The notes below the pieces were generated by a model. The model had not been told where the DNA came from and made no database searches. It saw only the letters and a list, made by a program, of their open reading frames with translations. The translations under genes and the position numbers were made by a program. Of a stretch of 64,000 nucleotides of DNA, positions 41,828-51,395 are shown one piece after another. Each line of letters begins with the position of its first letter. The stretch's first letter is position 1. The stretch covers positions 124,001-188,000 of the forward strand of contig NZ_JAFFZE010000022.1 in the NCBI RefSeq assembly GCF_025165815.1, read 5' to 3'. The stretch is from Actinophytocola gossypii (GTDB taxonomy: Bacteria; Actinomycetota; Actinomycetes; Mycobacteriales; Pseudonocardiaceae).

Positions 41828-41900
41828 GCCCTCGTAGCTCAGCGGACAGAGCAGGAGCCTTCTAAGCTCTGGGTCGCAGGTTCGAGTCCTGCCGGGGGCG
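41828..41900 (+). tRNA. tRNA-Arg (anticodon TCT)
   Basis: Acceptor GCCCTCG pairs with CGGGGGC (one G-T pair), discriminator G, no CCA encoded. D-arm AGCTCAGCGGACAGAGC, anticodon stem GGAGC/GCTCT around loop CTTCTAA with anticodon TCT, T-arm CGCAGGTTCGAGTCCTGC. Confidence 0.95.
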
Positions 41901-42076
41901 CTCACTCTCGGTGACCCCTGTCCCCCATTCCGGGCTCACCGCGCGGCAGGTGTCTTTGACGACGGTCGGAGAGCCGTGGCATGCGCCCGGGTGATCGGAA
42001 CCGGCCGCGAGACGGACCACGAGCCGCCCATGGGTACCGTGCGGAGATTGGCGACTGGGCAGGAGTGGGAGGAAGC

Positions 42077-42535
42077 ATGACGCGCGGGTCCCGGGTCAAC
42101 ATCGGTGAGGAGCACCCGACTGCCTACAAGGCCCTCATCGCGTTGTCGATGGAGGCGGACAAGAACGCCGCGGCCGCCGGACTCGATCCGCTACTGGTCG
42201 AGTTGATCCGGATCCGCACCTCGCAGCTCAACGGGTGTGCGTTCTGCCTGCGCATGCATACCCGCGACGCGCTCAAGAAGGGCGAGGACCCGGACCGGAT
42301 CGCGGTTCTGCCGGCATGGGCCGAAGCCGACTACTTCTCCGAGACCGAACGCGCCGCGCTTCGACTGACTGAGGCGGTCACGCTGGTGTCGGACGGGCAT
42401 GTCAGCGACGAGGACTACGACGCCGCCGCCGACGTGCTGACGTCGGAGCAGATCTCAGCCGTCACCTGGCTGACCACGGTGATGAACGCCTTCAACCGGG
42501 TCGCGATCACGAGCCGCTACCACGTCGGCCACTGA
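42077..42535 (+). CDS. Carboxymuconolactone decarboxylase / AhpD-like protein, first copy
   Basis: A 152-residue helical protein of the CMD/AhpD family. The redox pair is in QLNGCAFCLRMHTRDA (C-x2-C with the following His), the AhpD-type peroxidase-relay site. LTTVMNAFNRVAITSRYHVG closes the domain. It may reduce peroxides or act as an alkylhydroperoxidase partner; some family members are decarboxylases. ATG 42077 has GGAGGAAG just upstream. Two bases separate it from the second copy. Confidence 0.93.
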   Translation: MTRGSRVNIGEEHPTAYKALIALSMEADKNAAAAGLDPLLVELIRIRTSQLNGCAFCLRMHTRDALKKGEDPDRIAVLPAWAEADYFSETERAALRLTEAVTLVSDGHVSDEDYDAAADVLTSEQISAVTWLTTVMNAFNRVAITSRYHVGH

Positions 42536-42537
42536 GC

Positions 42538-43011
42538 ATGCGACAGTTCCTGGACGAGGTCATGCCGGAGGCGTGGCAGGCCGCGCAAGCGTATTCGGCG
42601 GCGATCCGCGATGCGGCGTTGGCGCGGGGGCTGGGTGCGCAGGAGGTCGAGTTCATCAAGGTGCGCGCCTCCCAGCTCAACAGGTGCGTGTTCTGTCTGG
42701 ACCTGCACTCGCGACAGGCCCGGCAGGCCGGGATCGTGCAGCAGAAGCTGGATCTGCTGCCGGCCTGGCGTGAGTGCGACCTCTACACCGACCGGGAGAC
42801 CGCGGTCCTCGCGGTCGCGGAGGCGGGCACGCTGCTGCCGGTAACCGACGACGGCCAGGCCGACCTCGACGCGGCGCGCGCGATCCTGGGCGAGGAGGGA
42901 TTCGTGGCGGCCGAATGGGTCACGGTCACGATCAACGCGTTCAACCGGATCTCCATCCTCAGTAAGCATCCGGTGCGCCCACGTGGAGCGGACGGAAAGA
43001 TGCTCCGGTGA
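42538..43011 (+). CDS. Carboxymuconolactone decarboxylase / AhpD-like protein, second copy
   Basis: A 157-residue paralogue of the preceding gene with the same layout: QLNRCVFCLDLHSRQARQAG holds the C-x2-C pair and VTVTINAFNRISILSKHPV the closing helix. Tandem copies may form a heteromeric AhpD-like assembly. The stop overlaps the start of the pirin gene (GTGA), so the three are one operon, probably oxidative-stress related. Confidence 0.93.
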   Translation: MRQFLDEVMPEAWQAAQAYSAAIRDAALARGLGAQEVEFIKVRASQLNRCVFCLDLHSRQARQAGIVQQKLDLLPAWRECDLYTDRETAVLAVAEAGTLLPVTDDGQADLDAARAILGEEGFVAAEWVTVTINAFNRISILSKHPVRPRGADGKMLR

Positions 43012-44018
43012 GCAATCTGGATCGACGTCCCGACCTGACCGTTCTGGCTCCGGGTGAGCCGTGTGGTTCGGTGGAGGTCCTTCCGCCGCGGCTCGTGCCG
43101 ATGGGCGGGCCGCGGGCCATGACCGTGTACCGGACGCTGCCGCAGCGCGCCCGGTCCCTGGTGGGCGCGTGGTGCTTCCTGGACCACTACGGTCCCGACG
43201 ACGTCGCGACCACCGGAGGCATGCGCGTCCCCCGGCATCCCCACACCGGGCTGGCCACCGTGTCCTGGCTGTTCACCGGGCATATCGACCACCTCGATTC
43301 CGCAGGGAACGCCGCACCGGTGCGGCCGGGTGAGCTGAACCTCATGATCGCCGGGCAGGGCATCACCCACTCCGAGACCAGCCGCTCCGACACCCTGCAC
43401 GGCGTCCAGCTCTGGTACGCCCTGCCCGACGCGACCCGCTTCTGCCCGAACCACTTCGAGCACTACGTCCCCGAACCGGTGACGGAACCGGGGGTGACCG
43501 CACGGGTGTTCCTCGGCGAGTTGCTCGGCTCGGCCTCGCCGGTCCAGACCCGCACCCCCGACATCCTCGGCGCCGAACTCGTGCTGGAACCCGACGCGAC
43601 GGTAGCCCTCGACGTTCGGCCGGACTTCGAACACGCCGTCCTCGCCGACGCCGGCACGGTCACGGTGAACGCCACGGCCGTCGAGCACCGGTGTCTGGCG
43701 TACGTGCCGCCGGGCGCGGACACGCTCGTGCTCACAGCCGGGCCGGAGCGCGCGCGGGTGCTCGTGCTCGGCGGCGTACCGCTGGAGGAGCGGATCGTCA
43801 TGTGGTGGAACTTCGTGGGCCGCAGCCACGAGGAGATTGTGGAGTTCCGACGGCGCTACCAGGCCGAGCTCGGCTTCGAACCCGCCGACCAGGCCGATGC
43901 GGGCAAACCACCCCTGTTCGGGCGGTTCCCGCCGGCGCAGCCGCCGGCACTGCCCGCTCCGGCGATACCGGCCACTCGCCTGGTTCCGCGCCGTCAGCCC
44001 CGGGACAAGCGACCGTAG
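43008..44018 (+). CDS. Pirin family protein (bicupin)
   Basis: A 336-residue bicupin. The N-terminal cupin has the pirin metal ligands in RVPRHPHTGLATVSWLFTGH (His-x-His) with the later His and Glu in QGITHSETSR. VQLWYALPDATRF is the family core; the C-terminal cupin PPGADTLVLTAGPERARVLV and a proline-rich end follow. Bacterial pirins can have quercetinase activity or regulate metabolic enzymes. Operon partner of two AhpD-like genes. Confidence 0.93.
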   Translation: MSNLDRRPDLTVLAPGEPCGSVEVLPPRLVPMGGPRAMTVYRTLPQRARSLVGAWCFLDHYGPDDVATTGGMRVPRHPHTGLATVSWLFTGHIDHLDSAGNAAPVRPGELNLMIAGQGITHSETSRSDTLHGVQLWYALPDATRFCPNHFEHYVPEPVTEPGVTARVFLGELLGSASPVQTRTPDILGAELVLEPDATVALDVRPDFEHAVLADAGTVTVNATAVEHRCLAYVPPGADTLVLTAGPERARVLVLGGVPLEERIVMWWNFVGRSHEEIVEFRRRYQAELGFEPADQADAGKPPLFGRFPPAQPPALPAPAIPATRLVPRRQPRDKRP

Positions 44019-44042
44019 AAACGAGCGTGACCGACGACCGTT

Positions 44043-45617
44043 TCACACCGTGGTCGACGACGTGTGATTGCCACGGCTCCAGGGTGGGATGCCGGCGCCG
44101 TCGTTCAGGTCCGTCAGGTCGTAACGAAATCGAGTAGGGGCAAGGGATCGCTCCATGGGTCTCCAGTCGGTCCAGATTCTCAGGTTCCCACCAGAAAGCT
44201 CATAGTCGCTTCCGTTCAGGTGGTAGTCGATCTCGTCGACAACAACCAGGTCCGTTGGCTCGTGGTTGTGTGCATGTCGCACTTCGCCGACCGTCAACTC
44301 GACTGCGGCAGCTGGCCCCGAGCTTCCCTTGACCTCGACATGACGTTCAGGACCAAGGCCTTTCACCTGCAAGTCATAGGGCTTGCCCAATTCGACTACT
44401 TCAGCCGCACCGTGGTCGAGGTAGTACTTCCTCGCCTTTTCCACAGCGTATTTCTCGATCGCGTCCTTGAGCTTGCTGTCTCGTAGGTACCCGCTCCCGA
44501 CCGCGCGCCGTATCGACGCGCCACCGGCCGCCGCCGATCCTGCGCCGTCGCCGCGATCGACGAGTGCGGCGAGCTCGGGAACGGCCTGAAGCAGCGCCAC
44601 GGGGAACTTGGTCAGGTACGACTGCGCCGCCCGAGGCGGACGCGACCGATACAAGGTGAACGGGAAGTACAGCGCACCTCGCACTGTCCGCCGCAGGTCG
44701 CGGTGCACCTGACGCAACACCGGCTCCAGTTCCGCGAGTCGCTCGTGCGAGAGGGGCTGAGACAGGCGGTTGAGGCCCCCGCACGGCATGCGCCAGCCCT
44801 GACCGACGGTGGCCGTACCGCGCGCCCTCCCACGCGTGCCATGGGCCTGCCACGTATACCCGTTCTCGACCGAAAGCGGCCCTGTGATCTCGGACCAACC
44901 AACGATTGCCGGCCTGCCGGTGAAGTCCCTGTGCCAGTGGAGCACGATGTCACCGGGGCGTGTCTCCGTGACGAGGGAGTATCCCCACTCGGGCTTGCGA
45001 GCACCGTTCAGTGTCGGCGCGTTGAGGTCGTCACCAAGACCGTCCTGCCGGTCAGTGATCTCCATCCAGAACCTCTCGGACGGATCTCCTGCCCACCAAT
45101 CGTTGATGGCGCTCCGCGAGGAAGGCTCAATTGGGCCGGACGGAAGATCGGTTCGTGCGAATTCGTACAAGGTCGCACGATCCGACTCCTCGAAGAACCT
45201 GGTGGCCAGTGCGTCCACCACTGCCTGAGCGGCGGACTCGTCCGAGCGCACCAACATCCACACGTCGGGACGCAGTCCGCCTTCCGGATTCACCCGATCC
45301 AGCCATGACCTGGTCGCCGAACCATGTGCCGCGACAACGCTCTCGTCCGATTCGACGATCAGCTCCCAGAGGCCGGAATTGCGCAAAGCGATGAACGGAT
45401 ACTCGGCGCTCGGCCGGCTTCCGGGTCGACCGAGCGCTTCGAGACCGGCGGCCAGCTCCGTACGTGCTTCGGACCACCGCACCAGACGGCCCAGACCTGA
45501 CCGAGCACGCCCAATAGCCCATAGGAGAGCGATCGCCTGATGGCGATGTGGCTGGGACTTCGTCCCACCCACCCGCATCGCCTCGACAGCGGCCACCAGC
45601 TCGGACATCGACGCCAT
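44043..45617 (-). CDS. Candidate modification-dependent (type IV) restriction enzyme: SBD-like, EVE/PUA-like, DUF3883
   Basis: A 524-residue protein in three parts. Residues 5-115 resemble the DNA-sulfur-binding head of ScoMcrA: GGTKSQPHRHQAIALLWAIG and EYPFIALRNSGLWEL match the typical GG-x-APHKPLLLL and YPFWRLQNDGLWEV patterns. Residues 180-345 look like an EVE/PUA base-flipping reader (WMEITDRQ, VTETRPGDIVLHWHRDF, IVGWSEITGPL). Residues 380-500 are DUF3883, a PD-(D/E)xK nuclease-like fold with D415 and E428-x-K430 (RHVEVKGSS). No methylase or dnd genes are near, so it would act as a solo enzyme against foreign DNA carrying modified bases or phosphorothioates. Domain assignments are by eye. 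Confidence 0.68.
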   Translation of the reverse strand: MASMSELVAAVEAMRVGGTKSQPHRHQAIALLWAIGRARSGLGRLVRWSEARTELAAGLEALGRPGSRPSAEYPFIALRNSGLWELIVESDESVVAAHGSATRSWLDRVNPEGGLRPDVWMLVRSDESAAQAVVDALATRFFEESDRATLYEFARTDLPSGPIEPSSRSAINDWWAGDPSERFWMEITDRQDGLGDDLNAPTLNGARKPEWGYSLVTETRPGDIVLHWHRDFTGRPAIVGWSEITGPLSVENGYTWQAHGTRGRARGTATVGQGWRMPCGGLNRLSQPLSHERLAELEPVLRQVHRDLRRTVRGALYFPFTLYRSRPPRAAQSYLTKFPVALLQAVPELAALVDRGDGAGSAAAGGASIRRAVGSGYLRDSKLKDAIEKYAVEKARKYYLDHGAAEVVELGKPYDLQVKGLGPERHVEVKGSSGPAAAVELTVGEVRHAHNHEPTDLVVVDEIDYHLNGSDYELSGGNLRIWTDWRPMERSLAPTRFRYDLTDLNDGAGIPPWSRGNHTSSTTV

Positions 45618-45719
45618 ACGCTTTCCCCCACCTCTCGCGCCACACGATAGGGGGTCACGCGGACGTGCAGAAGTGCGCGTTGCGTAGCTAGGAGTTCACG
45701 AATGTGCGCAGGTTGAGCG

Positions 45720-46835
45720 CTAGCCGGAGTAGCGGTCGGTCCAGCCCGTCATGGGGCCGTAGTCGCCGTGCAGGCGGGAGGACTGGGTGAACTCGAACAC
45801 GAGGTCGTCGGCCAGTTCCAGGATGGTGCCTCGGCCCTCCACGCGGAACACCAGTTCTGCGGGCAGGGCCGCATCGCCGTGCAAGGTGCCGAGGATGTTG
45901 CCGCAGATCGCGCCGGTGGAGTCGCTGTCGCCGGAGTGGGTGACGGCGATGGACAGGGCGTCGAGGATCTCGTTGGGGCCGGGGCGAACCAGTGCCGCGT
46001 ACACGGCGATGGCCAGCGCTTCCTCGGCCACCCACCCGCCGCCGAGTTGTTCGACGACCGTGTGGTCGGGGGTCGTGGTCTCCTTGGCGAGGTCGCACGC
46101 GGTGCGCAACGCCGTGCTGGTCTCCTCGTGGTCGTCGTACCGGGTCAGGAGAGCGAGGGTCGTGTCGACGGCTTGGGCGAGGTCGGCTCCGGCGACCAAC
46201 TCGTGGACGATCGAGGCGAGCGCGCCGGACGCCAGCCGGCCGGTCGGGTGTCCGTGGGTGTAGCCGGCGGCCTCGGCGGCGGCGTCGAAGAACCACGTGT
46301 CCGGGGCGCCGTTCGGCGGGAGGAGTCCGAAGGGCGCGGAGCGCATCACGCCGCCGCAGCCCTTCGAGTCGTTGTTCGCCAGGCCACCGTACTGGGGGAT
46401 GCGGTCACCGCCACGACGGGCCGATCCCAGTGCGGACAGGCAGGTGTTGCCCGGGGCGCGTTGCGCGTACAGCCACGGCTGGGTGGCCAGCCAGTCGCGC
46501 GCGGTCGGTGGGGGCTCGGGAAGCCGCTGGGTGTCCAGCCACTGGTCGTACGCGGCGTGCACGACGGCGACGGTGAGACCAAGCCCACGGTCGCGGCGGA
46601 TCCCGGCGCGGATCAGGCCGGCGACGGTGAACAACGTCATCTGGGTGTCGTCGGTGATGGGTGCGGTTCCGGCCTGTAGGTAGTCCCGCACGCCCTGCGC
46701 TCCGCACTCGGCGAGGATGCGGTCCGCCGGCCAGAACTCCACGGGCGCGCCGAGTGCGTCCCCGATCGCGCCGCCGATCAGGCAGCCACGCACCTGGGAT
46801 CGGTATCGGTCCGCCGCTTCCCGGGACAGCTCCAC
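45720..46835 (-). CDS. ADP-ribosylglycohydrolase (DraG/ARH family)
   Basis: A 371-residue dinuclear-metal hydrolase that removes ADP-ribose from proteins or small molecules. Metal ligands are at ITDDTQMTLFT (Thr-Asp-Asp) and in the C-terminal HSGDSDSTGAICGNILG (Asp-x-Asp-Ser/Thr); GCLIGGAIGDALGAPVEF begins the fold, and GGLANNDSKGCGGVMRSAPFG is a conserved block. GTG 46835 start. It lies 100 bp upstream of the restriction-like gene in the same direction. ARH genes occur both in metabolism and in phage-defence loci; the role here is unclear. Confidence 0.93.
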   Translation of the reverse strand: MELSREAADRYRSQVRGCLIGGAIGDALGAPVEFWPADRILAECGAQGVRDYLQAGTAPITDDTQMTLFTVAGLIRAGIRRDRGLGLTVAVVHAAYDQWLDTQRLPEPPPTARDWLATQPWLYAQRAPGNTCLSALGSARRGGDRIPQYGGLANNDSKGCGGVMRSAPFGLLPPNGAPDTWFFDAAAEAAGYTHGHPTGRLASGALASIVHELVAGADLAQAVDTTLALLTRYDDHEETSTALRTACDLAKETTTPDHTVVEQLGGGWVAEEALAIAVYAALVRPGPNEILDALSIAVTHSGDSDSTGAICGNILGTLHGDAALPAELVFRVEGRGTILELADDLVFEFTQSSRLHGDYGPMTGWTDRYSG

Positions 46836-46935
46836 CGCCGCACCCCCACGCGCGCTTCCGTCGCAGTGACCGCGACAGCGTAGCCAATCGCTTGCGTGGG
46901 TTTCGCGGAGAAGGCGAGTACTCGCTGGTGACCTG

Positions 46936-47673
46936 TCAGACCTGGACCAGACCGCCGTCGGCGTACAGGTTCGAGCCGGTGACGAAGCTGCTCTGGTCGC
47001 TGGCCAGGAACGCCACGGCGGCGGCGATCTCCTCCGGGCGCCCGAGCCGGCCCAGCGGCACCCCTTCGGCCAGTTGCCGTTTGAAGGCGACCGGGTCGGG
47101 AGCCAATCCGGACAGGCCGGGGGTGTCGGTCGGGCCGGGCGAGATGGTGTTGACGCGGATGCCGCGTCCTCTGAGCTCGTTGGCCCAGGTTCGGGAGAAG
47201 GATCGGACGGCGGCCTTGGTCGCCGCGTACACGCCGAAGGCTTCGTCGCCGACGTCCGCGTTGGTGGAGCCGTTCAGGATCACCGAGGCGCCGTCGTTGA
47301 GCAGGGGCAGCGCCTTCCGCACGGTGAACACGGTGCCTCGGACGTTGATGTCGAAGATCGTGTCGAAGTGCTCCTCGGTGATCTGCTCGAGCGTCGCGAA
47401 CGAGGCAACCGACGCGTTCGCGAACAGCACGTCCAGGCCCCGTCCCCGGTCGCGGATCGCCTCGTAGAGCCGGTCCAGGTCGGCCGGGTTCGAGATGTCG
47501 CCGGTCACGCCGGTCGCCGAGCCGATCACGTCGACGGCGGCGTCGAGCTCCGCCTGGCGCCGGCCGGTGATGAACACGTGCGCGCCCTCGGCGGCCAGCC
47601 GTACGGCGCTGGCCAGGCCGATCCCGGTGCTGCCGCCGGTGACCAGGGCGGTCCTGCCCTCGAGTAGCCCCAC
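46936..47673 (-). CDS. SDR family oxidoreductase
   Basis: A 245-residue short-chain dehydrogenase: TGGSTGIGLA cofactor loop, TGRR after beta2 (NADP preference), NAS in FANASVAS, catalytic Ser in NGSTNADVG, Y-x3-K in VYAATKAAV, and the NTISPGPTDTPG loop. The GTG start follows GGAGG. Divergent from the TetR gene with a palindrome between them, so likely the TetR target. Substrate unknown. Confidence 0.95.
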   Translation of the reverse strand: MGLLEGRTALVTGGSTGIGLASAVRLAAEGAHVFITGRRQAELDAAVDVIGSATGVTGDISNPADLDRLYEAIRDRGRGLDVLFANASVASFATLEQITEEHFDTIFDINVRGTVFTVRKALPLLNDGASVILNGSTNADVGDEAFGVYAATKAAVRSFSRTWANELRGRGIRVNTISPGPTDTPGLSGLAPDPVAFKRQLAEGVPLGRLGRPEEIAAAVAFLASDQSSFVTGSNLYADGGLVQV

Positions 47674-47694
47674 GGTGAACCCTCCTTCTTATTT

Positions 47695-47746
47695 TGCATC
47701 GATCGATGCAGAAACGACGCTAGCACATTCTGCATCGATCGCTTCA
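47695..47746. promoter_or_regulatory. TetR operators between SDR and TetR genes
   Basis: TGCATCGATCGATGCA at 47695-47710 is a perfect 16-bp palindrome; TGCATCGATCGCTTCA at 47731-47746 is an imperfect second copy 36 bp on. They lie between the divergent start codons, where a TetR dimer would shut both promoters. Confidence 0.82.
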
Positions 47747-47767
47747 GAAGAGGTAGGCTGCTCTGAC

Positions 47768-48376
47768 GTGGGGACCAGACAGGGCCGCCCGGTCGGCCGG
47801 CCGCGGGGATTCGACGTCGACGACGCGCTCGAGCGCGCCATGCTGGTCTTCTGGGAGCACGGCTACGAGGGGGCCAGCCTGGTCAACCTGACCGAGGCGA
47901 TGGGCATCTCCACCACCAGCATGTACGCCACCTTCGGCAACAAGGAGGAGCTGTTCCGCAAGGCGCTGGAGCGCTACAGCGAAGGTCCGGGCGCCTACGT
48001 GACCCGCGCCCTGGACGAGCCGACCGCACTCGGCGTCGCCACCGCGATCCTGGCCGGCACCGTCCGGACCACCACCCGTGCGGCGCGACCCCACGGGTGC
48101 CTGGGGGTCCAGGGCGCCCTGGCCACGGGCGACACCGCGCGCGGAGCCCGCGACCGGCTCGCCGCCTGGCGCAACGACGTCTACTCCCGTGTCCGGGAGC
48201 GGTTCCAGCGGGCCGTCGACGACGGTGACCTGCCGGCGGACACCGATCCGGCCTTCCTGGCCCGTTACGTCACGACGGTGTCGGCCGGCATCGCCGTGCA
48301 GGCGGCGAGCGGCGTCGGCTCCGACGAACTCCAGGAGATCGCCGACGTCGCCCTGCGCCACTGGCCGATTCACTGA
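47768..48376 (+). CDS. TetR family regulator of the SDR gene
   Basis: A 202-residue TetR protein. HTH: ASLVNLTEAMGISTTSMYATFG, with the YATFGNKEELFRKAL pattern of the AcrR/NemR-like group; the C-terminal TetR_C_16/33-like part has PHGCLGVQGALATG. The GTG start follows GAGGTAGG at some distance. It most probably represses the divergent SDR gene through the TGCATCGA sites. Confidence 0.92.
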   Translation: MGTRQGRPVGRPRGFDVDDALERAMLVFWEHGYEGASLVNLTEAMGISTTSMYATFGNKEELFRKALERYSEGPGAYVTRALDEPTALGVATAILAGTVRTTTRAARPHGCLGVQGALATGDTARGARDRLAAWRNDVYSRVRERFQRAVDDGDLPADTDPAFLARYVTTVSAGIAVQAASGVGSDELQEIADVALRHWPIH

Positions 48377-48558
48377 CTCATCGGTCACCACGGCCCGATT
48401 CGGGTGGGATGCCGCGGATCTCGGCCCTGAATCCTGAGCAGGAATTTCACGGCGTGTTCGGACGGTTTTTCGTTTTGCCTCGGAAAATCCGATCGGCGTT
48501 GTTAGGCTCGTGCCGGTTCGTATTGTGACGAACACGATCAGTGGACAGAGGGGGGCCT

Positions 48559-48954
48559 GTGTCGGCATCTGATGGTTTCACGGTGCGGCTCGACGCGCTC
48601 GGGTCATATGAGGAGGAGATCGGGCGGCTGGTCGCCGAGTACGACACGATCATCGGGGGGCTCGACCTGGCTGCTCTGGACGACGCCAAGAAGGCCTCGT
48701 TGGTGGGCACTCCGGAGAAACTCATCTCCGCCGGGGGTGCCGTGGAGTTCGCCGAGTCGTGCCGCACGTTGATCGGCAACTACGCCACGTTGATCGACAC
48801 GCTTCGGCGGCTGCACCTCGCCGTCCGGAGCCAGTTCGTGCACGCACAGCACGCCATCGGGGAGTCGCGTTCCCTGTACTCGAAGATCGACGAGGACCAC
48901 GCGTTCGCGTTCGAGGGGCTGCTTGGTGACAGTTCACCGAAGAAGGAGGGCTGA
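48559..48954 (+). CDS. Helical ESX-like (WXG100-type) small protein
   Basis: A 131-residue all-helical protein starting VSASDGFTVRLDALGSYEEE. It has the length and helix-turn-helix hairpin shape of ESX substrates, though the WXG is not present. The end has the general type VII secretion signal Y-x3-D/E (YSKID). First gene of a three-gene cassette: its stop abuts the start of the next gene. GTG start after GAGGGGGGCC. Confidence 0.68.
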   Translation: MSASDGFTVRLDALGSYEEEIGRLVAEYDTIIGGLDLAALDDAKKASLVGTPEKLISAGGAVEFAESCRTLIGNYATLIDTLRRLHLAVRSQFVHAQHAIGESRSLYSKIDEDHAFAFEGLLGDSSPKKEG

Positions 48955-49965
48955 GTGATGGCGCCTCCGGACCGGAGCGACACGCCTCGCGACACCGGCG
49001 TACTCGAGGAAGCGGGAATTCCGCCCGACTCGAACATGCGGGACAACGCCGAGCGGCTGGCTTCCTGGCTCGAGTTCCTGCTGCATCCCGAGGAGCACGA
49101 GTACGACCGGACGGTCATCTACGGCACGGAGTTCGGCGGTGAGGGGCACCGGAAGGAGGAACCTGGACCGGTCGCGCCCTCCGTGTCGGACCAGCCGGGC
49201 ACGGTGCCGAGCGACGCGCAGTTGCCGTTCGAGTCGGTGCTCGAGGGGTACGAGATCGCACAGTTCATTCATGGCATGTCGGCCGTCGCCAGCCCGGTCG
49301 TCGAGAGTTCGAACAACGCTCTCGCACCCGGCGCGGCGGCGCTGAGCAACGTCTGGTGGATGGGTGACAAGCGGGTTCCGTCGCTCGTCGACCGGTTTCA
49401 GGAGCTTGGTTGGACTGGCGACGCGTCGTCGGTCACGTTCGAGTTCCTGCTTCGTCTCCAGACCGTCACCGGTCAGGTGCACAAGCTGGCTGAGCAGCTT
49501 CACGACGTGGTGCCGAAGTACGCCGTGGTCGTCAAGGGTGTCCGGCGGAACCTCGATGAGGCGGCGGCGGGGTGCGTTCGGGCGTTCGAGAAGAAGTTCG
49601 CCGAGAAGCCGGGGAGCGCGATGTCCGTCGACTGGGGTGCGGTTGTTCTGGCCGGCATCGCGGCGGCGGCGGTCACGTATCTGACCGCGGGCACCGCTCT
49701 TGTCGTGGAGGCCGCGATGGCGAGTGCGTGGTCGACGGCGTTCTCGGACGCCGCCGGTGACCTGTTGAAGTCGACCGGTGGGACGGTCAGTGGGTTCTGG
49801 TGGCGTGATCTGGCGCAGTCGTACCTGCGCGAGCAGGCCGACATCATGGCGGCGGGCAAGGACGAGATCGACCAGTTGAACCGTAGGGTCGACGGGCTGA
49901 TCAAGTACTTCGACAACGACCCGGACATCCAGCGGTTCCTGGCGGACTACGGGCAACCATCATGA
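48955..49965 (+). CDS. ESX-associated large helical protein
   Basis: A 336-residue protein. Residues 1-80 are acidic and disordered; 80-260 are long helices with the WXG-like SNVWWMGDKRVPSLV near residue 132, a hydrophobic segment VVLAGIAAAAVTYLTAGTA at about 230-248, and the C-terminal LNRRVDGLIKYFDNDPD with a Y-x3-D signal. The layout resembles EspE/PE-PPE-like or WXG100 long substrates of type VII secretion. The GTG or ATG start is two codons after the previous stop. Confidence 0.65.
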   Translation: MMAPPDRSDTPRDTGVLEEAGIPPDSNMRDNAERLASWLEFLLHPEEHEYDRTVIYGTEFGGEGHRKEEPGPVAPSVSDQPGTVPSDAQLPFESVLEGYEIAQFIHGMSAVASPVVESSNNALAPGAAALSNVWWMGDKRVPSLVDRFQELGWTGDASSVTFEFLLRLQTVTGQVHKLAEQLHDVVPKYAVVVKGVRRNLDEAAAGCVRAFEKKFAEKPGSAMSVDWGAVVLAGIAAAAVTYLTAGTALVVEAAMASAWSTAFSDAAGDLLKSTGGTVSGFWWRDLAQSYLREQADIMAAGKDEIDQLNRRVDGLIKYFDNDPDIQRFLADYGQPS

Positions 49966-51395
49966 CCACACGGGCGATCGCGTTGGCCTTTGTCGCGGTG
50001 CTCGGGTTGGTCGGTTGCACGACGGGTGACACCGGGGGGTCGCCATCGACCACGCCGTCGACCACGCCGTCGACGCGGGACTCGGCGCGGCCGGGAGATC
50101 GGGACGAGGACGCTGTGCTGGCGGCGGTGCGGCAGCTCGACCTGTGTGCGCTGTTGGACAGGGCGAAGGCGGGCGGGCCTTTCGCGGGCGCGCGGCCCGT
50201 CGCGCGGCGGCCGTTCGAATGCGTGCTGAGCGGAGCGGCTGACCTTGTCGCGGTGAGCGTCACCGGGATCGGTCACGGGACTCGCGTCGAGTCGGTCACT
50301 CGGAGCGTCGGCGGTGCCAAGGCATATGTGGAGCAGGGCGGTGGCTGTTATGTCCACCTGCCGGTCAGTTTCACGACCGCCCTCCGGTTCTCGCAGGCTC
50401 CGGCATCGAACTGTGCGTCCTTGACGGGTCTCGCGGACGCGGCCGTTGCGGCGTTGGCGAATCCGGACACGTTCCGGGCGAAGCCGGTGTGGGACGCCTG
50501 CACCGCGCTGGCCGGCGTGCTCGACGCGGACGATGCGGCGCTGTCGGGGAACGGGCCGGCCGACTGCACGTCTCGTGAGCCGGCGGCGTCGATCTCGTTC
50601 GCGGACGACCTTCCGCCGTCGGGTGAGCGGAAGCCGTCTCGGACGACGAGCATCGGGGGTACGCGGGCACTGGTTTACGAGGAGGCGGAGAACTGTGCGG
50701 TCTACTGGCGTCAGGGGCCGTTCGACGTCCGGTATGGCGCGGCGGCTGATTTCCAGGTCGTCGCTCGTACCTCGGAATGCGGCGGCGCTACGGACCTTGC
50801 CGAGTCGCTGATGGCCGTGCTCGGGGAGGCGCCGCCGGACGACGTGGCGCCGCAGCGACCGTTGCTGTATCGACCGGACGAACCGGATAGCCCCTACCCG
50901 GGCGCGTGTGCGTATGTGGACGAGTTGGACCCGGATGGTTGTGCGCCCTATGTGGCGGTGGCGGTGCCTGACGATCCGGCGGAAATATTGTCCGCCGCCG
51001 CGGACGATGCCGACGTTCAATGTGCGATGGCGGTTCGGTCTGTCGGCGCACGCTTCGGCTCGGAACTGGTTCCGGTGGCGGACTCGGGAGCGGGCACCCG
51101 ATGCTTCTTCGTGGAGCCGGAACGACGGCTCCAAATCACGTTCTCGCTCTCGCACGGCAAGGTCGTCAACAGCTTTGGCGGTGAGCCGGTGACCATCTCC
51201 GGCCATCCAGGATATGTCACGACCGACGGTACATCGATTGCGTACGAGCTTTCGACGGCGACCATACTCGACGGCGAAGGAACTCTGACGCTGCGGGTGT
51301 CGACCGGCCCGGCCGACGCCGATCCCCTGGCACGGGCAATGGCCTTGAAGGCGGATTCCGTGCTCGCCGATGTCCTGGACAGCTACTTCTCCTGA
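49962..51395 (+). CDS. DUF3558-like lipoprotein
   Basis: A 477-residue exported protein. The N-terminal signal ends in lipobox LVGC (Cys19), followed by a Ser/Thr/Pro linker. Two DUF3558-like repeats follow: LDLCALLDRAKAGG with PFECVLS and VDVCTALAGVL-like CTALAGVL with DCTSREP, then a third CAYVDELDPDGCAPY block. DUF3558 lipoproteins often accompany ESX genes. Start ATG overlaps the upstream stop (ATGA), so the three genes are cotranscribed and the lipoprotein may help the secretion or cell-surface role of the two helical proteins. Confidence 0.75.
   Translation: MTTRAIALAFVAVLGLVGCTTGDTGGSPSTTPSTTPSTRDSARPGDRDEDAVLAAVRQLDLCALLDRAKAGGPFAGARPVARRPFECVLSGAADLVAVSVTGIGHGTRVESVTRSVGGAKAYVEQGGGCYVHLPVSFTTALRFSQAPASNCASLTGLADAAVAALANPDTFRAKPVWDACTALAGVLDADDAALSGNGPADCTSREPAASISFADDLPPSGERKPSRTTSIGGTRALVYEEAENCAVYWRQGPFDVRYGAAADFQVVARTSECGGATDLAESLMAVLGEAPPDDVAPQRPLLYRPDEPDSPYPGACAYVDELDPDGCAPYVAVAVPDDPAEILSAAADDADVQCAMAVRSVGARFGSELVPVADSGAGTRCFFVEPERRLQITFSLSHGKVVNSFGGEPVTISGHPGYVTTDGTSIAYELSTATILDGEGTLTLRVSTGPADADPLARAMALKADSVLADVLDSYFS

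Follow-up and report, generated by a model that had tools for sequence, protein, structure and literature searches.

A protein joining sulfur-binding, EVE and NOV_C domains in Actinophytocola gossypii is a probable single-gene type IV restriction enzyme

Introduction

Among modification-dependent (type IV) restriction enzymes, those built on a sulfur-binding domain (SBD) have been characterized as SBD-HNH and SBD-SRA-HNH proteins (PMC7461809), and SBDs have been reported to carry C-terminal HNH nuclease motifs almost exclusively (PMC7470945). The SBD is described as a winged helix-turn-helix, and SBD-SRA-HNH proteins are said to sit in many dnd loci (PMC10853773). In ScoMcrA, either modification is reported to be sufficient for cleavage, at a distance of 16-28 nucleotides (nt) for phosphorothioate (PT) and of 12-16 nt for methylation, the SBD being farther than the SRA from the HNH; tandem readers of this kind have been proposed as engineerable (PMC6224610). 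Regarding modified bases, VcaM4I flips 5-methylcytosine (5mC) or 5-hydroxymethylcytosine (5hmC) into a pocket formed by P24, W82 and Y130, while Q128 fills the helix (PMC7897488), and a class of type IV enzymes joining EVE to PD(D/E)XK has been predicted (Bell et al. 2020, PMC7641849). As for DUF3883, also known as NOV_C, it has been termed a novel restriction endonuclease (REase) domain (PMC3710099). Here we analyze a stretch of 64,000 nucleotides from the actinomycete Actinophytocola gossypii (contig NZ_JAFFZE010000022.1, positions 124,001 to 188,000), hereafter the window, in which one gene encodes an SBD, an EVE domain and a NOV_C domain in a single protein. We consider it likely that this protein is a single-gene type IV restriction enzyme equipped with a reader for phosphorothioate and another one for modified bases.

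Domain organization of the protein

The initial annotation of this DNA proposed that three parts related to DNA modification are united in one protein of 524 residues. This is indeed the case: the open reading frame (ORF) starts with an ATG preceded by a purine-rich stretch, has no internal stop, and each of the three domains was found in its product (Table 1). Modification readers and a nuclease-like domain with intact catalytic residues are thus present together, with no methyltransferase among nine neighboring genes, as expected of a type IV enzyme, and this part of the proposal is well supported. The folds of the domains, the cleavage of DNA and the specificity for modifications are what we infer from sequence comparisons.

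The head of the protein, suggested to be an SBD of the ScoMcrA type, was identified as such by phmmer searches of PDB, which matched 7ccd (E = 1.1e-20, residues 8-152) and ScoMcrA 5zmo (E = 3.7e-13, residues 21-161), the chains being named 'HNHc domain-containing protein' and 'Uncharacterized protein McrA' for 7ccd and 5zmo. We take 7ccd to be the SBD of SprMcrA, a domain studied in PMC7470945. The PADLOC model mREase_IV covers residues 20-161 (E = 6.3e-13), and NCBIfam PT-DNA_restrict matches the SBD part with an E value of 1.6e-11, its 43.9 bits lying far under the curated cut-off of 180. Residues of the sulfur cavity are kept, H26, Y73, P74 and A77 standing for H116, Y164, P165 and A168, whose roles in ScoMcrA have been described along with that of R117 (PMC6224610).

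Besides the window protein, the family search returned 24 SBD-only matches, of which the 15 with loci were examined. In the resulting set of 16 SBD proteins, which comprises that of the window, H26 is conserved in 14, P74 in 15, Y73 in 11 and A77 in 6, while position 27 is occupied by Q in eight proteins, K in six, and L and E in one each. Their nuclease partners (Pfam, E<=0.01) are HNH in nine cases, two of them under the curated cut-off, and NOV_C in two, with none in the other five. L014, in which the SBD comes with SRA and HNH as in the ScoMcrA plan, is the sole one of the nine HNH proteins with an SRA. The two NOV_C proteins are the window protein and L022, the latter under the Pfam cut-off. 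L022 (1012-2013 of its locus, minus strand) combines SBD and NOV_C without EVE, and its nuclease is doubtful because L replaces E428. In two SBD-HNH proteins, L017 (1042-2409, minus strand) and L023 (1012-2760, minus strand), Pfam names HNH alone, and an extra N-terminal part looks, by eye, like another PUA-like reader.

The EVE/PUA-like reader proposed for the middle of the protein is missed by Pfam and was recovered through family profiles leading to VcaM4I. A 15-row profile including two McrB-EVE rows had VcaM4I (6yex) as its single PDB match (E = 5.1e-7; best stretch 1.8e-5, VcaM4I residues 1-61). Without the McrB rows, the profile of the 10 EVE-NOV_C rows also had VcaM4I as its top PDB match, with an E value of only 0.11. 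The two McrB-EVE rows connect both ends: in hhalign, the EVE part of the 10 EVE-NOV_C rows aligned to them with a probability of 96.3 (pairwise E = 1.5e-9), and they matched VcaM4I over its residues 3-137 (E = 1.4e-12). L052, a McrB-EVE protein, on its own matched VcaM4I (E = 1.2e-10) and E. coli McrB (E = 1e-4), and Pfam at E<=0.01 names nothing in it. Pocket residues of VcaM4I could thereby be placed on the window protein (Table 1), W256, Q332 and Y334 being invariant in all rows; the Q332-S-Y334 correspondence is also seen in a very weak stretch of the McrB-free 10-row profile against VcaM4I.

At the C-terminus, PF13020 covers residues 387-453 (E = 1.7e-6) with 28.4 bits, over its cut-off of 22.1, and the D415, E428 and K430 initially assigned to a DUF3883 nuclease site are all in place. 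Conservation was assessed among 30 NOV_C proteins. Fifteen of them are EVE-NOV_C proteins, counting that of the window, and for the remaining 15, all with loci, the family search provided 14 and a plasmid one; family-search DUF3883 matches without a locus and eight plasmid records were left out. D415 and E428 are kept in 29 of the 30 and K430 in all of them, as are E388 (29/30) and E445 (30/30). The exception for D415 is a shortened copy, L021, and that for both E428 and E388 is L022. When a 28-row NOV_C profile was compared with PDB, four matches were obtained, none significant; in the second, 1gef (E = 0.29), the D...ExK site is weakly but collinearly aligned with D415...E428-K430. We take 1gef to be a Holliday junction resolvase of the PD-(D/E)xK nuclease class. 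Against PADLOC (E<=0.01), NOV_C rows matched HmaA in 20 of 28 cases and any single TmtA model in no more than 11 of the 28. In addition, MrcB_N (PF12102, best E = 6.5e-38) is present in 8 of the 19 NOV_C proteins scanned and is, judging from these profile matches, another reader-like domain joined to NOV_C.

The conservation of the site bears on the alternative that the protein is RNA-directed or regulatory, its EVE domain reading RNA and its NOV_C domain binding without cutting. EVE-superfamily domains have indeed been reported to read RNA as well (PMC7641849, PMC11090510). However, the SBD is characterized as a reader of DNA phosphorothioate (PMC6224610), and the retention of D, E and K throughout nearly all the NOV_C proteins also speaks for a nuclease, making a role of this kind highly improbable.

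Table 1. Coordinates of the SBD-EVE-NOV_C gene and of its features in the window.
Feature	Coordinates	Strand	Basis or remark
Whole gene, SBD-EVE-NOV_C	44043..45617	-	524 aa, one frame
SBD (sulfur-binding domain), residues 1-161	45135..45617	-	PDB and PADLOC matches
H26-Q27 = ScoMcrA H116-R117 (sulfur cavity wall, phosphorothioate contact); Q as SprMcrA Q32	45537..45542	-	phmmer alignments, residue table
Y73-P74-F-I-A77 = ScoMcrA Y164, P165, A168 (sulfur cavity lid, floor, wall)	45387..45401	-	phmmer alignments
EVE (PUA-like) domain, residues 169-352	44562..45113	-	Family profiles; weak Pfam matches in relatives only
P201 = VcaM4I P24, base pocket	45015..45017	-	P in 12/15 rows
W256 = VcaM4I W82, via McrB-EVE rows	44850..44852	-	Invariant, 15/15
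Q332-S-Y334 = VcaM4I Q128 (fills helix), Y130 (pocket), via McrB-EVE rows	44616..44624	-	Q332, Y334 invariant, 15/15
Gly/Ala-rich linker between EVE and nuclease, residues 353-378	44484..44561	-	Sequence
NOV_C/DUF3883 PD-(D/E)xK-like nuclease domain, residues 379-505	44103..44483	-	PF13020
D415, first acidic residue of D...ExK site	44373..44375	-	29/30
E428-V-K430, active-site ExK	44328..44336	-	E 29/30, K 30/30

Relatives and history

Searches with the whole protein covered 6 genomes of the genus and 249 of the family, and those with the EVE part 397 genomes of the order, 394 of the class and 396 of the phylum; these genome sets overlap and, from family to phylum, about 5 to 8 first-look candidates were scored per genome. 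Counting its own genome, matches were obtained in 2/6 genomes of the genus, 40/249 of the family, 6/397 of the order, 8/394 of the class and 3/396 of the phylum. A scan of genome contigs, which finds close relatives only, gave six loci, those with a name being from Actinomycetota. Matches were obtained in ten plasmid records, always over less than 80% of the query: eight Streptomyces records and one from Proteus matched in the DUF3883 part only, and a Nonomuraea replicon in EVE and DUF3883.

Fourteen further EVE-NOV_C proteins could be aligned (L004-L008, L010, L011, L040, L041, L045, L048-L051), L011 being devoid of the first part of the EVE domain, and no SBD was detected in any of their loci by tblastn with the complete window protein as query. 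EVE was also encountered joined to McrB, in L044 (same place as L053) and L052. Apart from these, there was one marginal match, L054. Short or deleted EVE-NOV_C copies occur in other actinomycetes (L009, L042, L043 and L021) and hint at gene loss; L009 and L042 contain the same 83 residues and may represent one genome.

In the tree of EVE-NOV_C parts, support is good for 7 of the 12 inner branches, and L045 and L051 sit on long ones. The window protein is sister to L010, which belongs to its taxonomic family and shares 64% identity with it (support 99/99). The start Met of L010 coincides with the beginning of the EVE domain, and 27 bases lie between it and the next ORF. Most simply, the SBD would have been gained in the window lineage once it had diverged from L010, the alternative being its loss in the other EVE-NOV_C lineages. 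Since no SBD was found in the 14 other proteins, the SBD looks, from these comparisons, like a graft onto an existing EVE-nuclease.

An additional N-terminal domain of about 150-165 residues is common to proteins of several architectures: the EVE-NOV_C proteins L006 (9503-9997) and L007, the SBD proteins L003, L024 and L038, and the NOV_C protein L016. Its copies share 40-68% identity (E = 2.5e-20 to 1.1e-50), and no Pfam name was obtained above cut-off for it in L003, L024, L038, L006 and L016. The long N-terminal part of L004 ends in a segment similar to that of L006 and L007. This domain looks like another exchangeable reader.

Surroundings of the gene

In the host genome (7.38 Mb, 53 contigs), the gene is located at 168046-169617 of contig C4. 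The G+C content of the window is 70.4%. The G+C content at third codon positions (GC3) of the gene is 0.739, the lowest of 11 ORFs compared (0.797-0.935 for the other ten), which fits a recent arrival without proving it. A Pfam scan of the nine neighboring ORFs (41981-51392) identified a pirin, two carboxymuconolactone decarboxylase-like proteins, an ADP-ribosylglycohydrolase, an SDR and a TetR protein, and three ORFs without clear match. Neither a methyltransferase nor a GTPase was detected among them by Pfam, in agreement with the initial statement that no methyltransferase or McrB GTPase is nearby, and the neighborhood is housekeeping-like. The pirin gene is found on one side, and on the other the ADP-ribosylglycohydrolase gene, followed by those of the SDR and of the TetR regulator. 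The ADP-ribosylglycohydrolase gene (45720-46835, minus strand) ends 102 bases upstream of the SBD-EVE-NOV_C gene in the same direction; this adjacency is probably due to chance, and both genes could be co-transcribed. A tRNA-Arg gene (41828-41901, plus strand), about 2.1 kb away, is a possible landing site for mobile DNA.

Among five genus-mates, the pirin gene is present in all and the ADP-ribosylglycohydrolase gene in three. Of 14 loci retrieved, 7 were checked (about 1.5 kb flanks), and in none of them do the pirin or ADP-ribosylglycohydrolase genes have other window genes adjoining, so that no empty site could be demonstrated. Neither viral contigs, in a pattern-based scan limited to close relatives, nor phage records contain a relative, so that a phage origin is unsupported. 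Two two-copy families of direct repeats and one imperfect inverted pair surround the gene and were taken as chance. Within the gene, in-frame start codons occur, among them a TTG at residue 150, the nearest before EVE, and an ATG at residue 185, inside EVE; as none has an obvious ribosome site by eye, separate expression of the EVE-nuclease part is unsupported.

Evidence for and against two working readers

Several lines of evidence weigh against a type IV enzyme with two readers. Regarding the SBD, position 27 (ScoMcrA R117) is a Q, so that a positive residue which is common at this place, without being strict, is missing; the R117Q change is reported to weaken ScoMcrA (PMC6224610). Moreover, the base-reading loop of ScoMcrA, SRGRR, is not kept, the window protein having GSATRSW instead. 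Together with the 14 EVE-NOV_C proteins in which no SBD was found and which presumably work without it, these features would suit a protein with a single effective reader, in which the SBD serves as an anchor on DNA or is a passenger undergoing decay, the protein acting in effect as an EVE-NOV_C nuclease directed at modified bases. However, the cavity positions hold residues seen in working SBDs, and the gene has neither stop nor frameshift. SprMcrA uses a Q at the same position, Q32, whose replacement by A costs about 50-fold in binding (PMC7470945); Q27 does not exclude membership of the SBD family, as this PT-binding protein has it too. We hence regard a single effective reader as unlikely.

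Regarding the EVE domain, PF01878 had no match in the window protein with E values allowed up to 1 or 5, and its matches in relatives are weak, concerning 5 of the 10 EVE-NOV_C rows at E<=5 (best 1.9e-4) and 8 of the 15 EVE-family rows at E<=1 (best 6e-5); L006 scores 21.1 bits, under the Pfam value of 23. An hhalign comparison with three plain stand-alone EVE proteins, a small and divergent set that makes for a weak test, failed with a probability of 1.1, and for this reason the EVE domain of this family is, as far as profiles tell, a divergent branch. Regarding NOV_C, nothing significant was obtained in PDB, an SRP protein outranks 1gef, and the domain has a net charge of -6. The precedent itself has weak points: PT-stimulated activity of ScoMcrA was reported as inconclusive in Mn buffer, 5hmC-stimulated activity being confirmed (PMC7461809), and its several recognition domains are said to weaken discrimination (PMC7470945).

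The triple architecture was, in addition, met in one genome only. This, and the several related genes that are fragments (L009/L042, L043, L021), would be expected of an accidental fusion or a decaying gene without function. Its frame is full-length, however, and the active-site and pocket residues tested are intact, which leaves this explanation barely credible.

The last point concerns the marks of the host. No match to TIGR03183 (dndC) was found in the host genome by profile search, the initial annotation having stated that no dnd genes are near; other phosphorothioation genes were not searched, and this negative is weakly controlled, the profile having matched 5 of 14 control genomes and none of the 14 over its cut-off. 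Three PAPS-reductase family matches are present, which, by eye, we take to be CysD, CysD and CysH. A profile search for C5 cytosine methyltransferases (PF00145), positive in 10 of 14 control genomes, likewise found none in the host genome, other marks not having been searched. Both expected marks are, judging from gene content, probably missing from the host DNA. Their absence is what self-safety would demand, and the lack of matches to dndC and to C5 cytosine methyltransferases would account for the ability of the host to carry the gene. The setting in dnd loci described for SBD-SRA-HNH proteins (PMC10853773) is not the one encountered here, as no DndC was found.

Proposed mode of action

A type IV enzyme with two readers, the reading we favor, would operate as follows. 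The SBD would hold incoming DNA by a phosphorothioate linkage, the EVE domain would flip out a modified base, most likely of the 5mC/5hmC class by analogy with VcaM4I, and NOV_C, carried by a flexible linker, would cut the nearby DNA. Because the EVE-NOV_C unit occurs without SBD in relatives, the latter was probably added to widen or re-aim an enzyme that already worked, and, since this unit exists on its own, we expect that one of the two marks may be enough (OR logic), in line with what is reported for ScoMcrA. Should the domains operate in linear order as in ScoMcrA, sulfur-triggered cuts would fall farther from their mark than base-triggered ones.

With its two readers placed one after the other ahead of a nuclease-like domain, the protein might also be a coincidence detector, cleaving only DNA that bears both a phosphorothioate and a modified base. 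For ScoMcrA, which is built alike, either modification is reported to be enough (PMC6224610), and EVE-NOV_C occurs elsewhere without SBD; such an AND logic is, in our opinion, very unlikely. The bolder proposal of a two-key enzyme, which would require a modified base in the close vicinity of a sulfur-marked backbone for cutting and would be the first SBD enzyme with a PD-(D/E)xK nuclease, appears quite unlikely to us.

Comparison with known systems

ScoMcrA from Streptomyces coelicolor (head-SBD-SRA-HNH) resembles the window protein in having an SBD, a base reader of the PUA superfamily and a nuclease in the same order, with SBDs that are homologous (E = 3.7e-13). The window protein differs by an EVE in place of SRA, a NOV_C in place of HNH, the lack of a 'head' before the SBD and the Q at position 117 of ScoMcrA. 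SRA and HNH are indeed absent, Pfam at E<=1 finding NOV_C alone, while the same kind of scan detects both of them in L014. In the SprMcrA/EcoWI group (SBD-HNH) is found the closest solved SBD, 7ccd (E = 1.1e-20), and SprMcrA shares the phosphorothioate-contacting Q; these enzymes differ by the lack of EVE and by their HNH nuclease. VcaM4I (EVE-HNH) has an EVE domain in which P24, W82, Q128 and Y130 are aligned with the window protein, and differs by its HNH nuclease and the lack of SBD; the window protein also has a longer stretch than VcaM4I between WW and the Gly that precedes the proline of the pocket.

The 14 relatives without SBD fit the predicted EVE-PD(D/E)XK class, and the window protein has an SBD in addition. 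The main text describing this class does not contain the word DUF3883 (PMC7641849). By profile match, the defense proteins HmaA and TmtA of PADLOC have the same NOV_C-like domain. They are much longer (1538 and 1782 positions for the TmtA models) and HmaA is described as a helicase, whereas the window protein has no helicase.

The novelty suggested by the initial annotation has thus to be reduced, as two readers on one nuclease already exist in ScoMcrA and enzymes joining EVE to a PD(D/E)XK nuclease had been predicted. In the literature searched, most subscription papers and supplementary files lying outside it, no paper was found joining SBD and EVE, SBD, phosphorothioate and EVE, or an EVE domain and DUF3883, nor, among the papers listed, one with both a sulfur-binding domain and DUF3883 or one using the word NOV_C. 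The SBD-EVE-NOV_C combination, and an SBD on an apparently intact nuclease other than HNH, were accordingly not met there.

The protein provides a testable model for two modification readers sharing one nuclease and might be of use in mapping DNA that carries phosphorothioate or modified bases. It looks like a second natural case of tandem readers and is best read as the ScoMcrA plan with base reader and nuclease both replaced, which suggests that type IV enzymes freely exchange both readers and cutters and that the plan of ScoMcrA has been assembled anew from other parts.

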